From contig SLBZ01000061.1 of assembly GCA_007126095.1 (NCBI GenBank), positions 45,111 through 109,110 of the forward strand: a DNA stretch of 64,000 nucleotides, written 5' to 3'. The DNA comes from Aquisalimonas sp. (GTDB taxonomy: Bacteria > Pseudomonadota > Gammaproteobacteria > Nitrococcales > Aquisalimonadaceae). Below, piece after piece: positions 3,570 through 14,862 of the stretch. A program made the position numbers and the translations under genes. Numbering within the stretch: the first letter of the stretch is position 1; each line of letters begins with the position of its first letter. The notes under the pieces were generated by a model. It saw only the letters and a program-made list of their open reading frames with translations, ran no database searches and was not told the origin of the DNA.

Positions 3570-4955
3570 TCAGCCTGCCTGCACGCGCTTTTCGTAGCGT
3601 GTCGCGTCCCGCGAGTACTGGCCGGAGAGTGCAAAGCCGGTGAGCCGGCCATTGGAGTGGTGCTCCATGACGGTTCCGTGCTCACCGGTCTCGACTTCGC
3701 GCCACTCCCCATGGGCCTCCGGTGGCCACACGGCCAGCGGCCAGCAGGGCGTCTTGATGACAATGGTGCCGGCCTCGGCCGTGTAGTCCGTGGTCTCACC
3801 GGCGATGTTGGCGGCGACCACGCGCGCCTGCTCCCGTAGCGGGCGCACGTAGGGCAGGAGCCTGCCGTCGTGTTCCGAGCAGTCGCCCAGGGCGTAGATG
3901 GCCGGGTCCGACGTCTGTAACTGGCCGTCGACCCGTATGCCGCTGCCCACTTCCAGCCCGGACTGCAGTGCCAGCTCCACGTTGGGCTTCAGCCCGAGGG
4001 CGCTCAGCGCCACGTCGGCTGTGGCCGTTTCGCCGTTGCCGAGGCGGGCGGTAAGGCGTCCGGTGCCGTTGTCGCGGTCGATGCGCTCCAGCGAGGTGCG
4101 CGGGATGAAGCGGATGCCACGTTGCCGGAGGGCGGCGTCCAGCTCGCCGCTGAGGCGTTCGGGCAACAGCCGGTGCAGGAGCCGGTCGGCCTGGTCCACC
4201 AGCGTGACGTTGTGCCCGGCTGCGGAGAGGTCGTCGGCGAACTCGCAGCCGATCAGGCCCGCCCCCAGGATCAGCACTCGGGAGGTGGCGCCGTCGCCAT
4301 CAATTCGCTCGCGCAGGCGCTGGTAGCTTTTCAGGTCGTTCACCTGCAGCACATCGCCGCTGGCCGATCCGGCCAGCTGGGGCTGCGGTTGTGATGCACC
4401 CGGGGCGAGAATCAGGTGCGCGTACGGTACGCCGCCGCGGGGCGTGATCACGCGCTGGCGCGCGCGGTCGATCTCCAGCACACGCGTGCGTGCCATGAGC
4501 GCGACGTTCCACTTGGCGGCGGCGTCGTCACCGGACTGGATCACCAGCGCGTCGGGGCGCTGGCCTTTCGCCGCCGCCGCGGACAGCTGCGGCTTCGGGT
4601 AGACGTCCGCATTGCAGCGCGAGACCATCGCAATCGGCCGGCTGGAGCCCGCGGCCCGGAGGGCCTCCACCACGGCCCAGGCCGCCATGCCGCCGCCGAT
4701 GATCACGATCTGGTCCGGGTGGCCGAAGTCGTGGTGGGCGGGTTGCCGGGCCGGGGCGGTGTCGGTCGCCTCGGCGCCGGTGTCATCAATGAGCTCGAAG
4801 TCGGCCTTGGTGACGCCGCAGTCCGGGCACTCCCAGTCGTCGGGGATGTCTTCGTAGCGGGTGCCGGGGGGCAGCCCGCCATCCGGGTCGCCTTCCGCCT
4901 CGTCGTAGATGAATCCACAAACCCGGCACAGGTAGCGTCGGTACGGAGTCGTCAT
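3570..4955 (-). CDS. rubredoxin fused to NAD(P)H:rubredoxin reductase
   Basis: Residues 1-55 form a complete rubredoxin with iron ligands Cys10, Cys13, Cys43 and Cys46. A linker leads to an FAD/NAD-dependent reductase with the FAD motif IIGGGMAA (about 85-92), the NAD motif LILGAGLIG (about 228-236) and the FAD-closing ALGDC (355-359). The 461-residue fusion would pass electrons from NAD(P)H through FAD to its own iron centre. It is the last gene of a leftward operon, 27 bp after the acyl-CoA-dehydrogenase-like gene, and is the likely electron source for that flavoprotein or for peroxide/oxygen reduction. Start by position in the operon. Confidence 0.9.
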
Positions 4956-4982
4956 GGCCTTTGGCTCTCCTGTTGATGGGTG

Positions 4983-6128
4983 TCAGTGGGCACCGAGTCG
5001 TTCCAGTTCCTTGCGCAGGTGCTTGATCGCCGGGGTGACGATCGCCACGAAGTAGGACTCCCGCAGCTTGCGTTGCCCGGGCGCGTTGGCCAGGTAGCCG
5101 CGGGCGCCGGCGTGCAGCATGGCGGCCTGGGATGCGCGCAGGGAAAGCTCGGATGCGGTGTGGCGCAGCTGCAGCACGTCGGCGAAGAGTTCATCGGACG
5201 GGTCACCGATCTCGCGGCCCAGGGCGCGCGTGGCGTTGCGCGCGTCGTCCAGCGCGTCGGTGAGTGCCGCGGGCTGATCGTCCAGGTAGCGGTTCACGTG
5301 GGCGTGCGTGGCGGCCATCTCCTGCATGATGTCGATGCAGCCCTGCACCACGCCGAGCCCCATGCCCATCTGCAGCAGAACGAACCCGGAGCGGATGCGG
5401 GGGATGAAGCCGCTGATGTCGTGGGTGATCACGTGGGCGTCCGGGATGAACGCATCGCGGAAGTGGCAGGCGTAGGTGCCGCTGCCTTCCAGGGCCGTGA
5501 ACTCGGCGCACTGCTGCAGGCTGAAGCCAGGCTGGTCACAGAACGTCACGGCCATGACCTTCCGGTCGCTGTCTTCGACCTGGAAGATCGCCGCAAAGGC
5601 GTGTTCGGCCGCCAGGTTGGAGACCCAGGGCAGGGTGCCGTTGGCGATGTAGCCACCCTCCACGGGGCGGACGCGGATCTTCAGCGCCTCGATGTCGGCC
5701 AGGTGTTTCATGCCGTTGGAGAGGCCGGTGCCACCAAGCAGCTCGCCGCTGGCGATGCGGGGCAGCAGGGTCTGTTTCGCCTCGGGGTTGTCGGCGTTCT
5801 CCAGATACCAGGCCAGGGCGTCCTGGCACCAGACGCAGAAGCCCGTGGACATGCACTCGCGGGAGACGGTTTCCATGAGCTGGATCGCCATGGGGAAGTC
5901 GTGCCCGGCGTTGTCGCGCCGCGACGGGATGTGCTGGCTGTAGCCGCCCAGCGCACCGAGTTCGTGCATGAACCCCGATGGATAGACACCTTGCCGGTCG
6001 ATCGCGACCGTTTGCGGTGCCAGTTGATCGCGGACGAGCCCGGCGACCCGGCTTTCAAGCGCGTGATCGGGTTCCAGGCCGGGCGCAAGCCCCGGCGTAT
6101 GGGGGAGTGTTTGTGCAGTAGCCGCCAT
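4983..6128 (-). CDS. acyl-CoA-dehydrogenase-fold flavoprotein, possible monooxygenase
   Basis: This 381-residue protein has the acyl-CoA dehydrogenase fold: an N-terminal helical domain, a central barrel with the flavin-binding stretch GGTGLSNGM, and a C-terminal four-helix domain. The usual C-terminal signature that follows the catalytic glutamate (IYEGTSEI) is not recognisable; the segment reads LRESYFVAIVTPAIKHL. This fits flavin monooxygenases or oxidases that adopted the fold (the DszC/SfnB kind) at least as well as a true dehydrogenase. It sits between the OsmC-like and rubredoxin-reductase genes under a sigma-54 promoter. Substrate unknown. Confidence 0.8.
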   Translation of the reverse strand: MAATAQTLPHTPGLAPGLEPDHALESRVAGLVRDQLAPQTVAIDRQGVYPSGFMHELGALGGYSQHIPSRRDNAGHDFPMAIQLMETVSRECMSTGFCVWCQDALAWYLENADNPEAKQTLLPRIASGELLGGTGLSNGMKHLADIEALKIRVRPVEGGYIANGTLPWVSNLAAEHAFAAIFQVEDSDRKVMAVTFCDQPGFSLQQCAEFTALEGSGTYACHFRDAFIPDAHVITHDISGFIPRIRSGFVLLQMGMGLGVVQGCIDIMQEMAATHAHVNRYLDDQPAALTDALDDARNATRALGREIGDPSDELFADVLQLRHTASELSLRASQAAMLHAGARGYLANAPGQRKLRESYFVAIVTPAIKHLRKELERLGAH

Positions 6129-6204
6129 GGGAGCCTCCGGCGTGACTTAAGGGGTGTGGTGAGCGCGGCGAAGCGGTGTGCATCGCCGCGCCGGATTGCC
6201 GGCC

Positions 6205-6741
6205 TCAGGCCAGGCTCATCGTGGTCGGGACCGGGTTGCGCATGGTGTTCGCCACGGGCGACCACTTGTCGGCCCAGGCGACCAGCTCCTCGAGTTCTTC
6301 ACGGGAGCAGTCGGCGTCGATGTCGAAGGTCGCGCGGATCTCCGTGAACCCCAGGCGTTTCTCGCTGGTGTCGCCGACGCCCCAGACGCTGGAGATGTTG
6401 ATGTCGCCTTCCAGGTCGCACTCGAGCTTGTAGACCTTGATGCCCTTGTAGGTGGCGTTGGCGTGGATGCCAACCAGCAGGCACGAGGCGAGGGCGGCCA
6501 GGGCGGCCTCCGACGGATTCGGTGCGTTGTTCTCGCCGAGCAGGGTCGGCGGCTCATCGATCAGGTGGCCGTCCAGATCCCGGCAATAGGTCATCATGCG
6601 GAAGATGCCTTCGCACTCCGTGTGGGACTTCAGCGTGTTGACCTTGGTGGGGTCCATCTTCGCCTTCGCTCCCAGCGCCTTGAGGCCCTCCAGATCGATC
6701 GGGCGTATCGGCTGTTTCGTTTGTGCTGCTGCGTCGCTCAT
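6205..6741 (-). CDS. OsmC/Ohr-superfamily protein lacking the second cysteine
   Basis: This 178-residue protein contains the OsmC core NPSEAALAALASCLL with Cys87 on the central helix. The second family cysteine, normally in a C-P-V context, is Ser161 in KWSPVANTM, so the classical two-cysteine peroxidase cycle is unlikely. A one-cysteine or thiol-carrier role is possible. The start at 6741 follows AGGAGG; upstream in-frame starts at 6768 and 6831 are less supported. It is the first gene of the operon, about 36 bases from the predicted sigma-54 transcription start. Confidence 0.85.
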   Translation of the reverse strand: MSDAAAQTKQPIRPIDLEGLKALGAKAKMDPTKVNTLKSHTECEGIFRMMTYCRDLDGHLIDEPPTLLGENNAPNPSEAALAALASCLLVGIHANATYKGIKVYKLECDLEGDINISSVWGVGDTSEKRLGFTEIRATFDIDADCSREELEELVAWADKWSPVANTMRNPVPTTMSLA

Positions 6742-6787
6742 CGCGTCCTCCTGAGGTGTTTGCGTCATGAGAGTTCGCCAGGCTCTC

Positions 6788-6803
6788 TGCAGCAGACGTG
6801 CCA
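6788..6803 (-). promoter_or_regulatory. sigma-54 promoter for the OsmC/flavoprotein/rubredoxin operon
   Basis: Read leftward, the sequence is TGGCACGTCTGCTGCA. It has the invariant GG-N10-GC spacing, a perfect TGGCACG -24 box and a CTGCA -12 box (one mismatch to TTGCA). The start point would fall near 6777, just upstream of the OsmC-like gene. A sigma-54 activator is encoded on the other arm of the divergon. Confidence 0.72.
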
Positions 6804-6912
6804 GGCGCGTCGATACGCGGTTTATGCCCAATAAAAAACCCTTAAAAACGGTTGATTACAGATTTTTGTTCAAGTTGTTTGGCGTCTCTACGGCGCTGTT
6901 CGGAAGGGGGGT

Positions 6913-6939
6913 GACAATGTGGTCAATGTCGACATTGTC
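6913..6939. promoter_or_regulatory. palindromic enhancer candidate between divergent sigma-54 promoters
   Basis: The 14-bp perfect palindrome CAATGTCGACATTG (6924-6937) is nested in a second inverted repeat GACAATGT-N11-ACATTGTC (6913-6939). It lies about 120 bp upstream of the rightward predicted start and about 150 bp upstream of the leftward one, the normal range for a sigma-54 upstream activator sequence. It is the likely binding site of the GAF-AAA-Fis regulator encoded at 8478. Confidence 0.6.
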
Positions 6940-7021
6940 GGCTTTGTCCGGCCGGGTGCGGTGGTGCTCGGCGCCACCGGAATGCGGCTCAGGCCCCGGT
7001 GTTCGTTGCAGTGCGGCAAAC

Positions 7022-7037
7022 TGGCACAGCGCTTGCT
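7022..7037 (+). promoter_or_regulatory. sigma-54 promoter for the binding protein/activator operon
   Basis: TGGCACAGCGCTTGCT matches the sigma-54 consensus with GG at 7023-7024 and GC at 7035-7036, exactly ten bases apart. The start point would be near 7048, leaving a leader of about 40 bases with GAGGAAG before the ATG at 7088. Confidence 0.75.
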
Positions 7038-7087
7038 CGGGTGGTTGGTGACAACCTGACCGTCCCGCCACCGCGAGGAAGTGACTG

Positions 7088-8461
7088 ATGAAAAGCCTTG
7101 GTGACCCGTATAGCCCCCACTCAGACCTGCGCCACGGGGCCGGCTGCTCCTGCGAGAGCTGCACGCCCGCCGGCACGGCGCATTCGGACACCGCACAGGC
7201 GTCCACGCGTGAGGACATCGTGGACCGCGCCGTGGAAAACACCCTGGTGCGCGCACTGTTTGGAGGCAACGACATCAGTCGTCGCCGCTTTATGGCCGCA
7301 GTCGGCCGTGGCACCGCCATGGCGGCGCTGGCGTCGGCGTTTCCCATGGGCGCGCTGAAGTCTGCACTGGCGGACGACCTGGGCCCGCTGGAGCAAACGG
7401 AGATGACCATCCCGTTTCTGCCCATCACCTGTGCCACCCCCATCATCATGGGGGATGCCATGGGCTTCTATGAGCGCTACGGGCTGAACGTGACCCTGGA
7501 GCGCGTGGCCGGCTGGCCCGTGGTGCGGGATCGCATGGACGCAGGCGAGTTCAATGCCGCGCACATGTTGGCGCCGATGCCGCTGTCCATCCGTATGGGC
7601 GTTGGCGCAAGCCGGCTGCCAGTGACCATGCCCGCGGTGGAGAACATCAACGGCAATGCCATCACCCTGGCCAACAAGCACAAGGACAAGATGGACCCGA
7701 AGGACTGGAAGGGCTTCACCTTCGCCATTCCGTTCGATTTCTCCATGCACAACTTCCTGCTCCGGTATCTGCTGGCCGAGCACGGGCTGGATCCGGATCG
7801 CGACGTGAGCCTGCGGGTGATGCCGCCGCCGGAGATGGTTGCCAACCTGCAGGCCGAGAACATCGACGGCTACATCGTGGCCGAGCCCTTCAACCAGCGC
7901 GCTGTTTGGGAGGGGGCCGGCTTTATCCATACGCAGACCAAGGACATCTGGAGCGGTCACCCGTGTTGCGCCTTCGTGGTCCGGGAGGACTGGGTCGACG
8001 AGCACCCAAATACCTTTGGCGCGCTGTTCCGCGCCATCGTGGATGCAACCCAGTTCAGCTCGGAGGCCGACAACCGCAAGGAGATCGCCGAGGCCATTTC
8101 GCCGCGGCAGTATCTCAACCAGCCGGTGCCGGTAATGGAGCAGATTCTGGTCGGGCGGTATGCGGACGGACTCGGCGAGGTCAAGGACATGCCCGACCGG
8201 ATCGACTTCGACCCGTTCCCCTGGCAGTCCATGGCGGTGTGGATGCTCACGCAGATGAAGCGCTGGGGGTATATTGATGGCGATGTGAACTACCACCAGA
8301 TCGCGGAAGAGGTGTTCCAGGCCACGGAGTGCCGGAAGGTCATGGAAGAGCTCGGTTACAACGCCCCCGAAGAGAACTACCGCATCCACGAGATCATGGG
8401 CAAGGAGTTCGACCCGCACGATCCGGAGGGCTATCTGGAGAGCTTCGAGGTGCGCGCTTGA
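7088..8461 (+). CDS. NrtA/CmpA-family periplasmic binding protein, Tat-exported
   Basis: This 457-residue protein belongs to the nitrate/bicarbonate-type (NMT1/NrtA) binding proteins. A long leader contains Cys20, Cys22 and Cys25, then the twin-arginine motif SRRRFMA (64-70) and a hydrophobic stretch ending near ALA. The mature part shows family segments such as PITCATPIIMGDAMGFYERYG, DFSMHNFLLRY and WSGHPCCAF. Relatives usually precede permease and ATPase genes; here the next gene is a sigma-54 activator, so the transporter is absent from this locus. It may scavenge a ligand for a distant transporter or act in sensing. Confidence 0.88.
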   Translation: MKSLGDPYSPHSDLRHGAGCSCESCTPAGTAHSDTAQASTREDIVDRAVENTLVRALFGGNDISRRRFMAAVGRGTAMAALASAFPMGALKSALADDLGPLEQTEMTIPFLPITCATPIIMGDAMGFYERYGLNVTLERVAGWPVVRDRMDAGEFNAAHMLAPMPLSIRMGVGASRLPVTMPAVENINGNAITLANKHKDKMDPKDWKGFTFAIPFDFSMHNFLLRYLLAEHGLDPDRDVSLRVMPPPEMVANLQAENIDGYIVAEPFNQRAVWEGAGFIHTQTKDIWSGHPCCAFVVREDWVDEHPNTFGALFRAIVDATQFSSEADNRKEIAEAISPRQYLNQPVPVMEQILVGRYADGLGEVKDMPDRIDFDPFPWQSMAVWMLTQMKRWGYIDGDVNYHQIAEEVFQATECRKVMEELGYNAPEENYRIHEIMGKEFDPHDPEGYLESFEVRA

Positions 8462-8477
8462 CCGACCGCATGTGCAC

Positions 8478-10073
8478 ATGACGACCGATAGCGAACTCCC
8501 CGGCGAGTCGCTGGTGCTGGTGGAAACGGCCCAGTTGCTGGGCCGTTCCCTGCGCCCGGAGGCCACTATCCCGGCCGTGCTGCGCCTGCTCTCGGAGCTG
8601 GTCGGCCTGAACCGGGGCCGCGTGGTGCTGCCGGACGACGATGGGCAACGCCTGCGTATCCGTTACTCGTACGGTCTGCGCCCCGAGGAACGTGACCGGG
8701 GCGTGTACCGCCTGGGCGAGGGAATCACCGGCGATGTGATGCGCACCGGCCGGGTCTGTGTGGTTCAGGACGTGGACGCGGAGCCCCAGCACCTGTTCCG
8801 GGCGGTCGACCGGGCAACGCTGCCGGCCGAGACGGTGTCGTTCATCGCCGTGCCGATTCTGATGGACGACACGCCCATCGGCGTATTGGGGTGTCATCGA
8901 CTGCGCGCGCGGTCGCGCGGGTTTCAGTCCGACATCCAGCTGCTGCGGATTGTTGCCGCGATGCTCGGGCAGACCCTGCGCATCCGGTCGTTGATGGATC
9001 AGCGCACGGCCTGGCTCGAGGATCAGAACGAGGCACTGCGCAAGGCGCTCGCGCGGCAACAGCAGCACCAGGGCATTCTGGGCGACAGCCCGCAGTTGCG
9101 TTCCACACTGGATGAAGCCGGCCGCGTGGCGTACAGCGATGCCACGGTCATGCTTCTCGGCGAGTCGGGCACGGGCAAGGAGCGGTTTGCCCGCTACATC
9201 CACGAGCAGGGCCCTCGGGCATCGGGGCCCTTCATCTGCATCAACTGCAGTGCGATTCCGGCGACCCTGCTGGAAGCCGAGATCTTCGGTCATGAACGCG
9301 GTGCGTTCACCGGGGCGGTGCGGAATCGGCCGGGCAAGGCCGAGCTGGCCGACGGCGGGACGCTGTTCCTGGACGAGATCGGTGACATGGATATCGAGCT
9401 GCAGGCCAAGCTGCTGCGCCTGATCCAGGAGCGCAAGGTGCAGCGGGTCGGGGGCGACCGCGACATTTCCGTGGATATCCGCATCATCACGGCCACCCAT
9501 CGCAATCTTCAGGAAGCGGTGAATCTCGGACAGTTCCGCCTGGACCTGTTCTATCGCCTCAACGTGGTACCGATTCGCCTGCCGCCGTTGCGAGAGCGCG
9601 CCGGGGATGTGGTGCAGCTCGCTAGGCATTTCCTCGATTGCTTCAACGCCAGGCACCACCGCGAGGTTGCCCTCGGGGCGGGGGTGCTGGCACGGCTGCA
9701 GAGCTATCCGTGGCCCGGGAACATCCGGCAGCTCGAGAATCTCATGGAACGCGCCGTCATCACCGCTCGCGGGGATACTATCGATGCGGCGGATATCGAA
9801 CACATCCTGAACGACGAGTCCGTGGTCAGTGGAGCGGTGCATGTTGTGCACGCGGAAGCGCCGGCTGATGAAGAGAGGGGCGTTACGGTGCATGCCGGCG
9901 AGTCCGAGCCCGCGATGTCGGGCCGACCGTACCAGCGGGTCGATCCCTCGGAGGCCGAACGACTCCGCTCCGCCCTCGCACAGAGCCGCGGCAACAAGAC
10001 CCGGGCCGCGCAGATGCTGGGGCTGAGCGTACGGCAGTTCCGCTACCGCCTGACGAAACTGGGCCTGGACTGA
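8478..10073 (+). CDS. sigma-54-dependent activator, GAF-AAA-Fis (NifA-like architecture)
   Basis: This protein of about 531 residues has an N-terminal GAF sensor (about 15-170) and a coiled linker. The AAA domain carries Walker A GESGTGKE (about 230-237), the sigma-54 contact loop GAFTGA (277-282) and Walker B LFLDEIGD. A C-terminal Fis helix-turn-helix (NKTRAAQMLGLSVRQFRYRL) follows. All catalytic elements are intact. NifA's inter-domain cysteines are not evident, so oxygen sensing through them is not supported. GTG 8472 is an alternative start; neither start has a strong ribosome binding site, suggesting coupling to the binding-protein gene 10 bp upstream. Its probable targets are the two flanking sigma-54 promoters. 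Confidence 0.92.
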   Translation: MTTDSELPGESLVLVETAQLLGRSLRPEATIPAVLRLLSELVGLNRGRVVLPDDDGQRLRIRYSYGLRPEERDRGVYRLGEGITGDVMRTGRVCVVQDVDAEPQHLFRAVDRATLPAETVSFIAVPILMDDTPIGVLGCHRLRARSRGFQSDIQLLRIVAAMLGQTLRIRSLMDQRTAWLEDQNEALRKALARQQQHQGILGDSPQLRSTLDEAGRVAYSDATVMLLGESGTGKERFARYIHEQGPRASGPFICINCSAIPATLLEAEIFGHERGAFTGAVRNRPGKAELADGGTLFLDEIGDMDIELQAKLLRLIQERKVQRVGGDRDISVDIRIITATHRNLQEAVNLGQFRLDLFYRLNVVPIRLPPLRERAGDVVQLARHFLDCFNARHHREVALGAGVLARLQSYPWPGNIRQLENLMERAVITARGDTIDAADIEHILNDESVVSGAVHVVHAEAPADEERGVTVHAGESEPAMSGRPYQRVDPSEAERLRSALAQSRGNKTRAAQMLGLSVRQFRYRLTKLGLD

Positions 10074-13623: not shown

Positions 13624-14235
13624 CTAGCGAACGCTGTCCAGAATCGTGCCCAGATACGGCTTGTGTCGGTCGATGTCGTCCCGGCTCAGGCCGTTCATCT
13701 CGTAGGGGAACACCAGCCAGTCTTCCGACTGGTGCTGGCAGTAGTCCGGCGTGATGCCGGTCTGGTTAGCGCTGGGGCGCTGGTACAGGGTGGCGACGCG
13801 CGTATCCGTGGGCATGTTGCGCTTGAGCTGGTTGTTCAGCCGTCGCAGCACGGCGGCCACGCTGTGGCCGGTGCCGAAGACGTCGTCCACGATCAGCAGG
13901 CGGTCGTCCCGGTTGAGGTTGTCCAGCAGATAATGGGTGCCGTGCACGCGGATCTTCGCATCCGGAGAGGCCACCATGGCGTCGTAGTCGTGCATACCCT
14001 GGTAGGAGGTGCGCAGGGCGATGTGGTCCGTCTCCACCCCGAGTGTCTGCAGGCACTCCTGCACGTAGATCCCCACCGCGCTGCCGCCGCGCCACAGGCC
14101 GACGATGAAGTTCGGTCGGAAGCCGCTTTCGTAGACCTGTACGCCAAGCCGGAAGGCATCCTGAATGAGATCCGCCTCCTGCAGGAAGCGCCGGGGGCGG
14201 GCGGTTTCTTCGGGTTTCGTGGTTCGCTGTGTCAA
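13624..14235 (-). CDS. phosphoribosyltransferase-family protein A of a divergent pair
   Basis: This 203-residue protein has the type I PRTase PRPP loop LLIVDDVFGTGHS (113-125) and an upstream WRGG element (48-51) at the pyrophosphate-binding position. It aligns along its length with the neighbour encoded rightward from 14299, so the two are paralogues. The C-terminal hood differs and contains PDYCQHQSEDWLVFP. The substrate is probably a purine or related base (hypoxanthine/xanthine PRTase-like), but the hood gives no firm prediction. Start at 14235 leaves 63 bp to the divergent start. Confidence 0.85.
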   Translation of the reverse strand: MTQRTTKPEETARPRRFLQEADLIQDAFRLGVQVYESGFRPNFIVGLWRGGSAVGIYVQECLQTLGVETDHIALRTSYQGMHDYDAMVASPDAKIRVHGTHYLLDNLNRDDRLLIVDDVFGTGHSVAAVLRRLNNQLKRNMPTDTRVATLYQRPSANQTGITPDYCQHQSEDWLVFPYEMNGLSRDDIDRHKPYLGTILDSVR

Positions 14236-14298
14236 TGGTTTGCCAGAGTGCGTCGTTTGGTGGGATTATGCCCGGCCTTCGTGACCATCAGTGGTGCC

Positions 14299-14862
14299 AT
14301 GGCTGAGAAACACTACATCACCGCGCAGAGCCTGCTGGAGGACTCCTTCCGGCTCGGTGCGCAGATCCTGAACTCCGGTTTCCGGCCCACCTTCATGATT
14401 GCCGTGTGGCGCGGCGGCGCACCCATCGGTATCGCCGTTCAGGAGTTTCTGGATTACCACGGCGTGCACACGGATCACATCGCCGTCCGGACGTCATCCT
14501 ATCACGGCATCGACCAGCAGAGCCGCAGCGTGCGGGTGCACGGGCTCAATTATCTGGTCAAGCACGTCACCCACGACGACGATCTGCTGATCGTCGACGA
14601 CGTCTTCGATACCGGCCGCTCCGTGGTGGCCATCATCGAGGAGCTGCGTCAGCGGGCGCGGCTGAACACTCCCCACGATATCCGTGTGGCCGTGCCGTAC
14701 TACAAACCGGCCCGCAACGAGGTGGGCTGGGCTCCCGAGTATTACCTGCATGAAACCGACGCCTGGCTGAAGTACCCGCACTCGCTGGAAGGGCTGACGC
14801 CGGAGGAGATCGCCAGCAACCGCCCGGAGCTGCACGCGATTCTGGCGCCGCACCTGAAATAG
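14299..14862 (+). CDS. phosphoribosyltransferase-family protein B of a divergent pair
   Basis: This 187-residue protein has the PRPP loop LLIVDDVFDTGRS (96-108) and WRGG (37-40). Shared blocks with the leftward neighbour include SGFRP near residue 27, the WRGG loop and TDHIA. The hood contains APEYYLHETDAWLKYP. The loop residue after DDVF is Asp here and Gly in the partner, so the two may differ in substrate or activity. The start at 14299 is chosen because the family N-terminus begins there; ribosome binding is weak. Confidence 0.85.
   Translation: MAEKHYITAQSLLEDSFRLGAQILNSGFRPTFMIAVWRGGAPIGIAVQEFLDYHGVHTDHIAVRTSSYHGIDQQSRSVRVHGLNYLVKHVTHDDDLLIVDDVFDTGRSVVAIIEELRQRARLNTPHDIRVAVPYYKPARNEVGWAPEYYLHETDAWLKYPHSLEGLTPEEIASNRPELHAILAPHLK

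Follow-up and report, generated by a model that had tools for sequence, protein, structure and literature searches.

Among the closest described systems to the one reported here is the cynFABDS cluster of Pseudomonas pseudoalcaligenes CECT5344, in which CynF, a Fis-like sigma-54 regulator reported to be essential for cynABDS expression, is encoded divergently from an NrtA-like ATP-binding cassette (ABC) transporter and a cyanase, with a sigma-54 promoter before cynA (PMC6627978; accessions of this form are those of PubMed Central, PMC). We analysed a divergently transcribed set of five genes, at positions 3570-10073 of a 64,000-nucleotide stretch of Aquisalimonas sp. (GenBank assembly GCA_007126095.1, contig SLBZ01000061.1, positions 45,111 to 109,110), hereafter the window. 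In contrast to the Pseudomonas cluster, where OsmC, flavoprotein and rubredoxin reductase genes are neither part of the published cluster nor among the neighbours that we found named for it, the divergon of the window activator holds these three genes together with an orphan binding protein, and cynABDS lies elsewhere in the genome behind a NasT-like ANTAR gene. The promoter and operator sequences, the gene set and its linkage to cyanate are solid observations. We suggest, with a probability of roughly 45%, that the divergon is a sigma-54-controlled pseudohalide oxidation module which feeds cyanase, the conversion of thiocyanate to cyanate being the likeliest chemistry; both substrate and chemistry are inferred.

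A second system for comparison is the 'cyanate pathway' of Thioalkalivibrio and Guyparkeria, which depends on thiocyanate dehydrogenase (PMC5328954, PMC6504805, PMC5744179) and which the proposed module would resemble in its net conversion, thiocyanate yielding cyanate and reduced sulfur, and in some of its host genera. Thiocyanate dehydrogenase, however, is described as a copper enzyme that delivers electrons to cytochrome c for energy, whereas the proteins of the window are a flavoprotein and a rubredoxin reductase, encoded near an importer component. The terms OsmC, rubredoxin and acyl-CoA do not occur in the main texts of these three papers, to which the supplementary transcriptome tables of PMC5744179 do not belong.

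The left arm of the divergon, on the reverse strand, encodes three proteins. A rubredoxin fused to an NADH:rubredoxin reductase (3570-4955, 461 residues) carries the rubredoxin, FAD/NAD and rubredoxin-binding C-terminal domains, all above the profile cut-offs (PF00301, E = 4.3e-22; PF07992, E = 3.3e-51; PF18113, E = 2.1e-11). Upstream of it on this strand lie the genes of the acyl-CoA-dehydrogenase-fold flavoprotein (4983-6128, 381 residues), the proposed oxidising enzyme, and of an OsmC-like protein (6205-6741, 178 residues; PF02566, E = 7.3e-20), for which ATG 6741 is the best start because TTG 6831 sits upstream of the left promoter. The right arm, on the forward strand, encodes an NrtA/CynA-like substrate-binding protein (7088-8461, 457 residues; PF13379, E = 3.1e-83, 279.9 bits) with a Cys-containing N-terminal stretch followed by a Tat-type signal, as judged by eye, and then a GAF-AAA+-Fis sigma-54 activator of the NifA/CynF type (8472-10073, 533 residues; PF01590, PF00158, PF02954) in whose translation the GAFTGA loop can be read. 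No permease or ATPase gene lies beside the binding protein. Its closest solved structures are NrtC, CmpC and NrtA (E = 6e-59 to NrtC chains and 2.7e-50 to NrtA), and from this likeness and its NMT1_2 domain we assign it to the NrtA/CynA type, its ligand being a prediction. Across the genome PF00158 gave 13 strong and 4 weak matches, and the activator was the only one within the window.

Each arm is preceded by a sigma-54 promoter of the GG-N10-GC type, TGGCACGTCTGCTGCA for the osmC operon (6788-6803, reverse strand) and TGGCACAGCGCTTGCT for the right operon (7022-7037, forward strand), and these were the only two matches to the strict pattern TGGCAYRNNNNYTGCW in all 64 kb (shuffled mean 0.14, with 2 of 100 shuffles reaching two matches). 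Between them lies a candidate operator or enhancer, an inverted repeat of 18+18 nucleotides with 78% complementarity (6913-6948), the core of which is the 14-bp perfect palindrome CAATGTCGACATTG, with its inner 12 bases at 6925-6936 and its centre some 128 bp from the -24 element on the left and some 91 bp from that on the right. In an alignment with two genomes of the same genus, both promoters and the core of the operator stood out as conserved blocks in an otherwise diverged intergenic region. The weight of the 8-mer TGTCGACA comes from this conservation, since the 8-mer alone is not rare in window DNA (three occurrences against a shuffled mean of 1.15). The earlier note on this DNA, made from the sequence alone, had described this gene order, the two promoters flanking a perfect palindrome, and the second gene of the right arm as the sole sigma-54 activator of the window, all of which is borne out by the domain profiles, the genome-wide PF00158 search and the promoter counts.

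The regulatory layout recurs in relatives. A sigma-54 site was scored where GG and GC were both present and 10 or more of the 12 consensus letters agreed, within 400 bp upstream of a gene. By this measure 74 of 89 osmC genes have one (base shuffles 2.2), as do 40 of 49 nrtA/cynA-like genes (0.4) and 56 of 84 activator genes (2.6). These counts were drawn from 94 loci that include duplicates, the same contig being present in both genome sources (L028 and L073, or L033 and L092, for example, have identical activators). For the operator survey 236 regions were reduced to 219 distinct ones; base shuffles served as the control for sigma-54 sites and first operator counts, and dinucleotide shuffles for the per-gene operator counts. 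Within 220 bp upstream of the sigma-54 sites of osmC, the window included, the exact element GACANTGTC was present in 31 of 75 regions (dinucleotide shuffles 0.2), TGTCGACA in 23 (0.2) and TTGTYRACAA in 20 (0.0). GACANTGTC also preceded transporter ATPase genes (11/23) and cynS (7/15). Because the same type of element precedes osmC, transporter, cynS and some cynA genes across genomes, both arms likely form one regulon, as the earlier note had proposed; its alternative, a gene set peculiar to this strain with no palindrome shared by relatives, failed, as gene set, sigma-54 sites and palindromic elements all recur.

The conservation of the gene set was assessed at two scales. Of 274 sampled genomes of the class, 15 gave a match to the flavoprotein at E <= 1e-20, one of them being that of the window; the other 14 divided into 11 clear orthologues, with best segments of 46-61% identity, and three weak matches (24-27%); most of the neighbourhoods contained OsmC, rubredoxin reductase and the activator, together with ABC transporters, cyanase (PF02560), rhodanese and DUF302 genes. 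A scan of one genome per species then gave 475 loci, and the best 80, ranked by similarity to the window, form the set of relatives used here. Among these 80, OsmC was present in 75, rubredoxin in 76, the reductase part in 66, the activator in 66, cyanase in 57, a permease in 64, an ATPase in 65 (a count that may contain unrelated ABC ATPases, as it was made by a score cut of 100 only), rhodanese in 29 and DUF302 in 36. One locus (L128) has no separate flavoprotein row, an overlapping open reading frame (ORF) having taken its place. Where an OsmC gene was present, it lay within 400 bp of the flavoprotein gene in 66 of 75 cases, and cynS was at a median distance of 3.9 kb and at most 9.3 kb. 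Restricting the count to the 50 loci whose flanks extend 8 kb or more in both directions, which represent 25 taxon groups, leaves 41 with cynS, 47 with a binding protein and 44 with the activator; seven of the nine genomes without cynS nearby carry it elsewhere. The NrtA/CynA type of binding protein accounts for 42 of the 80 loci, plus the window, and the best NCBIfam match of a second type is the SsuA family, at a score below the cut-off.

The gene set is spread over alpha-, beta- and gammaproteobacteria. By a count of record titles, 39 of the 80 records belong to sulfur-oxidising genera or families (Thioalkalivibrio, Guyparkeria, Halothiobacillus, Thiohalocapsa, Acidithiobacillus, Thiobacillus, Sulfuriferula, Thiomicrorhabdus, Sulfurisoma and Parasulfuritortus). 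Four genomes of the phylum (loci L158, L159, L161, L163) have an OsmC-flavoprotein-rhodanese run with the activator and cynABDS and no reductase match. The set also occurs on plasmids: in Marinobacter pMAD49a the transporter, sigma-54 regulator, OsmC, flavoprotein, reductase and cynS genes form one run, an Acetobacter plasmid has a compact run of OsmC, flavoprotein, rubredoxin, transporter and cynS, and roseobacter plasmids have a compact version with a sulfurtransferase. In all six annotated plasmid regions of its family examined, the flavoprotein is labelled acyl-CoA dehydrogenase, a name that hides the family. Two records of Neisseria gonorrhoeae that are filed as plasmids but have the size of a chromosome (about 2.17 Mb) also contain a flavoprotein homologue (43%), with no annotated feature under the match. 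A glutathione S-transferase gene (e.g. L096 13672-14319) is common to 11 of 83 loci compared, clusters of Guyparkeria, Halothiobacillaceae and Acidithiobacillus among them.

The window cluster itself has no cyanase gene. Only one gene of the genome matches PF02560, the cynS of a cynABDS operon on another contig, C146 (L047 7858-12342), which is preceded by a NasT-like response-regulator/ANTAR gene and headed by a second NrtA-like homologue, 64% identical to the window's binding protein. The lone binding protein of the window, having no permease of its own, may use that of C146; the corresponding divergon of L171, from a different genus of the family, comes with a complete transporter. A sigma-54-like site is present at the C146 operon, and no operator of the window type was found in the stretch read there. 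The cynA leader beyond this site has a GC-rich stretch and a run of T, which suggests antitermination control; an Rfam scan of the leader gave sub-threshold matches only. Among 14 genomes of the window's family, 4 have the activator, and 3 of these also have the flavoprotein (in the remaining one the contig stops inside osmC); cyanase is found in 8, so that the activator tracks the flavoprotein module, not cyanase. In family f162, 18 of 20 cynS regions are without the flavoprotein, and the other two adjoin flavoprotein loci.

The activator has the traits of the CynF type, being a Fis-type AAA+ protein with GAFTGA and homologous (48% identity) to an activator of locus L224 that lies, as CynF does, divergent from cynABDS, except that it is not itself adjacent to cynABDS. 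We class it as CynF/NifA-type, with a predicted response to cyanate; the likeness runs through the L224 protein, not through the CynF of CECT5344. In a tree made by a quick method, with long branches, the window copy groups with copies from the same genus, Ectothiorhodospiraceae and Halomonadaceae. A role as NifA in nitrogen fixation was rejected, the score against the NifA equivalog TIGR01817 (471.8 bits) being below the cut-off of 528.85. A nitric oxide system was considered as well, as NorR/NorVW likewise has a GAF-type sigma-54 activator governing a rubredoxin reductase. In contrast to that system, however, the window divergon has no flavodiiron protein, and the profile scores fall below the cut-offs for both NorR (342.7 against 476) and NorW (282.2 against 392), so this reading too was rejected.

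The flavoprotein matches the acyl-CoA dehydrogenase fold, and one position sets it apart from the enzymes that give the fold its name. The alignment with short-chain acyl-CoA dehydrogenase (SCAD) is ungapped over its last stretch, which reaches Ile363 of the flavoprotein and Ile362 of SCAD; the catalytic glutamate of SCAD and its medium-chain counterpart (MCAD), which we take from the SCAD tail to lie two residues beyond the end of the alignment, would then correspond to Thr365. This threonine is kept in 99% of 84 aligned flavoprotein rows, and the flavoprotein thus appears by alignment to have lost the catalytic glutamate of acyl-CoA dehydrogenases. With that glutamate gone, and with neighbours in relatives belonging to cyanate and sulfur metabolism, a role in beta-oxidation was dropped. 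Monooxygenases of the DszC and SfnB types gave weak matches only (19.3 against an NCBIfam cut-off of 850 for DszC, and 22.9 against 430.9 for SfnB). No monooxygenase was present among the VIA-align rows of the flavoprotein, a result that excludes nothing.

The OsmC-like protein departs from its family in a comparable way. Cys87 is invariant in 81 of 81 rows, and Ser161, followed by Pro162, is likewise invariant at what we presume to be the place of the usual second Cys-Pro motif of OsmC/Ohr proteins. The two catalytic cysteines of an OsmC/Ohr peroxidase are therefore not both at their usual positions, although Cys43, present in 61 of 81 rows, leaves room for a second redox cysteine elsewhere.

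A sister subfamily of the flavoprotein was found in 7 of 25 genomes of one genus (genomes of 5.5-7.2 Mb), and the five sister loci that were read (L186-L190) share the order CMD-flavoprotein-ATPase-binding protein-permease. They differ from the window in their small partner, CMD rather than OsmC, and neither a rubredoxin reductase nor a cyanase was found in them with the queries used. On the assumption that the genus is Pseudomonas, and from gene order alone, we equate them with PA2331-PA2327 of P. aeruginosa, an operon that likewise joins an acyl-CoA-dehydrogenase-type protein to a NitT/TauT ABC transporter and in which PA2331 is presumably the CMD gene. The link is the agreement of the order with the annotations of PA2327 as permease, PA2328 as binding protein, PA2329 as ATPase and PA2330 as acyl-CoA dehydrogenase (PMC8274868, PMC8466066). 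Three reports bear on the regulation of that operon: Frangipani et al. (2014), as cited in PMC10687435, where 12 genes are induced by endogenous hydrogen cyanide (HCN) and a table marks PA2328-PA2331 as up; PMC8466066, where expression of PA2328-PA2330 is lowered in a mutant with 42 changed genes, 30 of them related to sulfur; and PMC7775676, where a drug mixture lowers PA2328-PA2331 together with hcnABC.

Further loci lie between or beyond these two forms. On the Moraxella osloensis plasmid pNP7-5 (L177 7199-14239) a CMD-type protein replaces OsmC and is followed by a flavoprotein belonging to the family of the window's (39.5%), a rubredoxin reductase and an NrtA-type transporter, so that this operon bridges the window type and the sister form. 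In a Variovorax record the flavoprotein gene adjoins a CMD gene. A distant version, DUF4242-flavoprotein-ATPase-binding protein-permease, lies on Synechococcus elongatus pANL (L191 7313-11778) downstream of cysteine synthase, gamma-glutamyltransferase and chromate transporter genes. Thiocyanate is the compound on which the cyanide induction, the regulation with sulfur, the rhodanese, the importer of anion type and the cyanase all converge.

In the pathway that we propose, the activator, through its GAF sensor, would bind the TGTCGACA-type operator and switch on both arms, and an importer of the NrtA/CynA anion type would take up the substrate, most likely thiocyanate. Electrons would pass from NADH through the fused rubredoxin/rubredoxin reductase to the flavoprotein, which would oxidise thiocyanate to cyanate, while OsmC would handle the sulfur on its invariant cysteine and, in many relatives, a rhodanese or DUF302 protein may carry it further. 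Cyanase, here the cynS of C146, would then split cyanate into ammonium and CO2. It is a tentative further step to regard this as a third route of thiocyanate breakdown, apart from thiocyanate hydrolase and the copper thiocyanate dehydrogenase, in which an acyl-CoA-dehydrogenase-fold flavoenzyme fed by NADH and rubredoxin makes cyanate under a sigma-54 switch sensing cyanate or thiocyanate; we hold that step to be somewhat less probable than even.

Several findings weigh against the thiocyanate module. The flavoprotein is nearest by sequence to acyl-CoA dehydrogenases and not to known flavin monooxygenases. The reductase part is absent from 14 of the 80 loci (some of them cut by contig ends), from several further loci and from some plasmids, and two Halomonas genomes have the module with no cynS found. 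The flavoproteins of L186 and L190 are only 26-28% identical to that of the window and may act on another substrate, and their equation with PA2330 is one of layout, with the Pseudomonas identity assumed. The operator, too, is less than universal: a combined test, which accepts either GACANTGTC in exact form or TTGTYRACAA when no more than one letter differs, finds it in 52 of the 75 osmC promoter regions. GACANTGTC occurs in 5 of 41 nrtA/cynA regions (shuffles 0.4), and none of the three exact elements is present in the 11 cynA regions examined from the Guyparkeria/Halothiobacillus group, so the operator is not used by every arm in every genome. Nor is the TTGTYRACAA form specific to the window's activator, since three copies 30 bp apart stand at an unrelated site of the same genome (L047 14995-15064), between GntR-type-regulator-like and thiolase-like ORFs. 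Lastly, inspection by eye revealed no such operator next to the cynF-like gene in L224. Repeated palindromes of the ACGATATTTCGT type are present there (L224 11160-11230), suggesting a different operator in that lineage.

The main rival to the thiocyanate module is the oxidation of cyanide, in which flavoprotein and rubredoxin reductase would together be a cyanide monooxygenase (CN- + O2 + NADH -> OCN-), cyanase would finish the reaction and the transporter would serve cyanate. The cyanase and rhodanese neighbours would suit such an enzyme, the presumed sister operon is reported to be cyanide-induced (PMC10687435), and a cyanide monooxygenase yielding cyanate has been proposed, its existence not having been shown in the accounts given by PMC11049912 and PMC5778177. 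The sulfur-oxidising hosts, the rhodanese and DUF302 genes and the conserved OsmC cysteine, however, point to sulfur. HCN, moreover, crosses membranes and needs no ABC importer, and yet an anion-type binding protein is present in 47 of the 50 well-covered loci. We consider cyanide an unlikely substrate; were it the substrate nonetheless, the module would be the long-proposed and never demonstrated cyanide monooxygenase.

It is also improbable, to a similar degree, that the module acts on another small C-N-S or C-S compound, such as an isothiocyanate, an organic thiocyanate or a short sulfonate, which releases cyanate or calls for cyanase in its detoxification. Such a substrate would agree with the second type of binding protein, nearest to the SsuA family though below its cut-off, with the glutathione S-transferase gene in 11 of 83 loci, and with the replacement of OsmC by CMD or DUF4242 in the sister operons. 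Characterised binding proteins of the NrtA/CynA type, however, bind small inorganic anions, and it is this type that the window and 42 of the 80 loci possess. OsmC-family proteins are often stress proteins, which would suit a cyanate-stress response in which OsmC, flavoprotein and reductase repair damage (e.g. carbamoylation or oxidant stress) and do not make cyanate. Although cyanate does react with proteins (PMC6627978), this last reading is very doubtful, given the serine at the position of the usual second OsmC cysteine, the travel of the set on plasmids with a transporter and often a sulfurtransferase as a catabolic-looking unit, and the 18 of 20 cynS regions of family f162 that are without the flavoprotein.

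Should the thiocyanate module prove to be as proposed, it could explain how bacteria that lack known thiocyanate enzymes obtain nitrogen and sulfur from thiocyanate. It would also offer a candidate for an enzyme forming cyanate out of either thiocyanate or cyanide, and would hint at what the cyanide-induced operon PA2327-PA2331 does. As both compounds are pollutants of mining and coking, such enzymes could have practical use. A search of the PMC literature, supplementary files lying outside it, found no description of a cluster that joins OsmC and rubredoxin with acyl-CoA dehydrogenase and cyanase; PMC5596200, the one paper with at least four of five such terms, mentions them separately. For Hydrogenovibrio, a cyanate transporter and weak growth on thiocyanate in one strain are reported (PMC5733100).

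Elsewhere in the window, two pairs of small genes (161-810 and 1130-1632) are toxin-antitoxin-like in their translations, one HigBA-like and the other RelE/YefM-like. At 13624-14862, two divergent ORFs have mutually similar, phosphoribosyltransferase-like translations and are possibly a duplicated pair.

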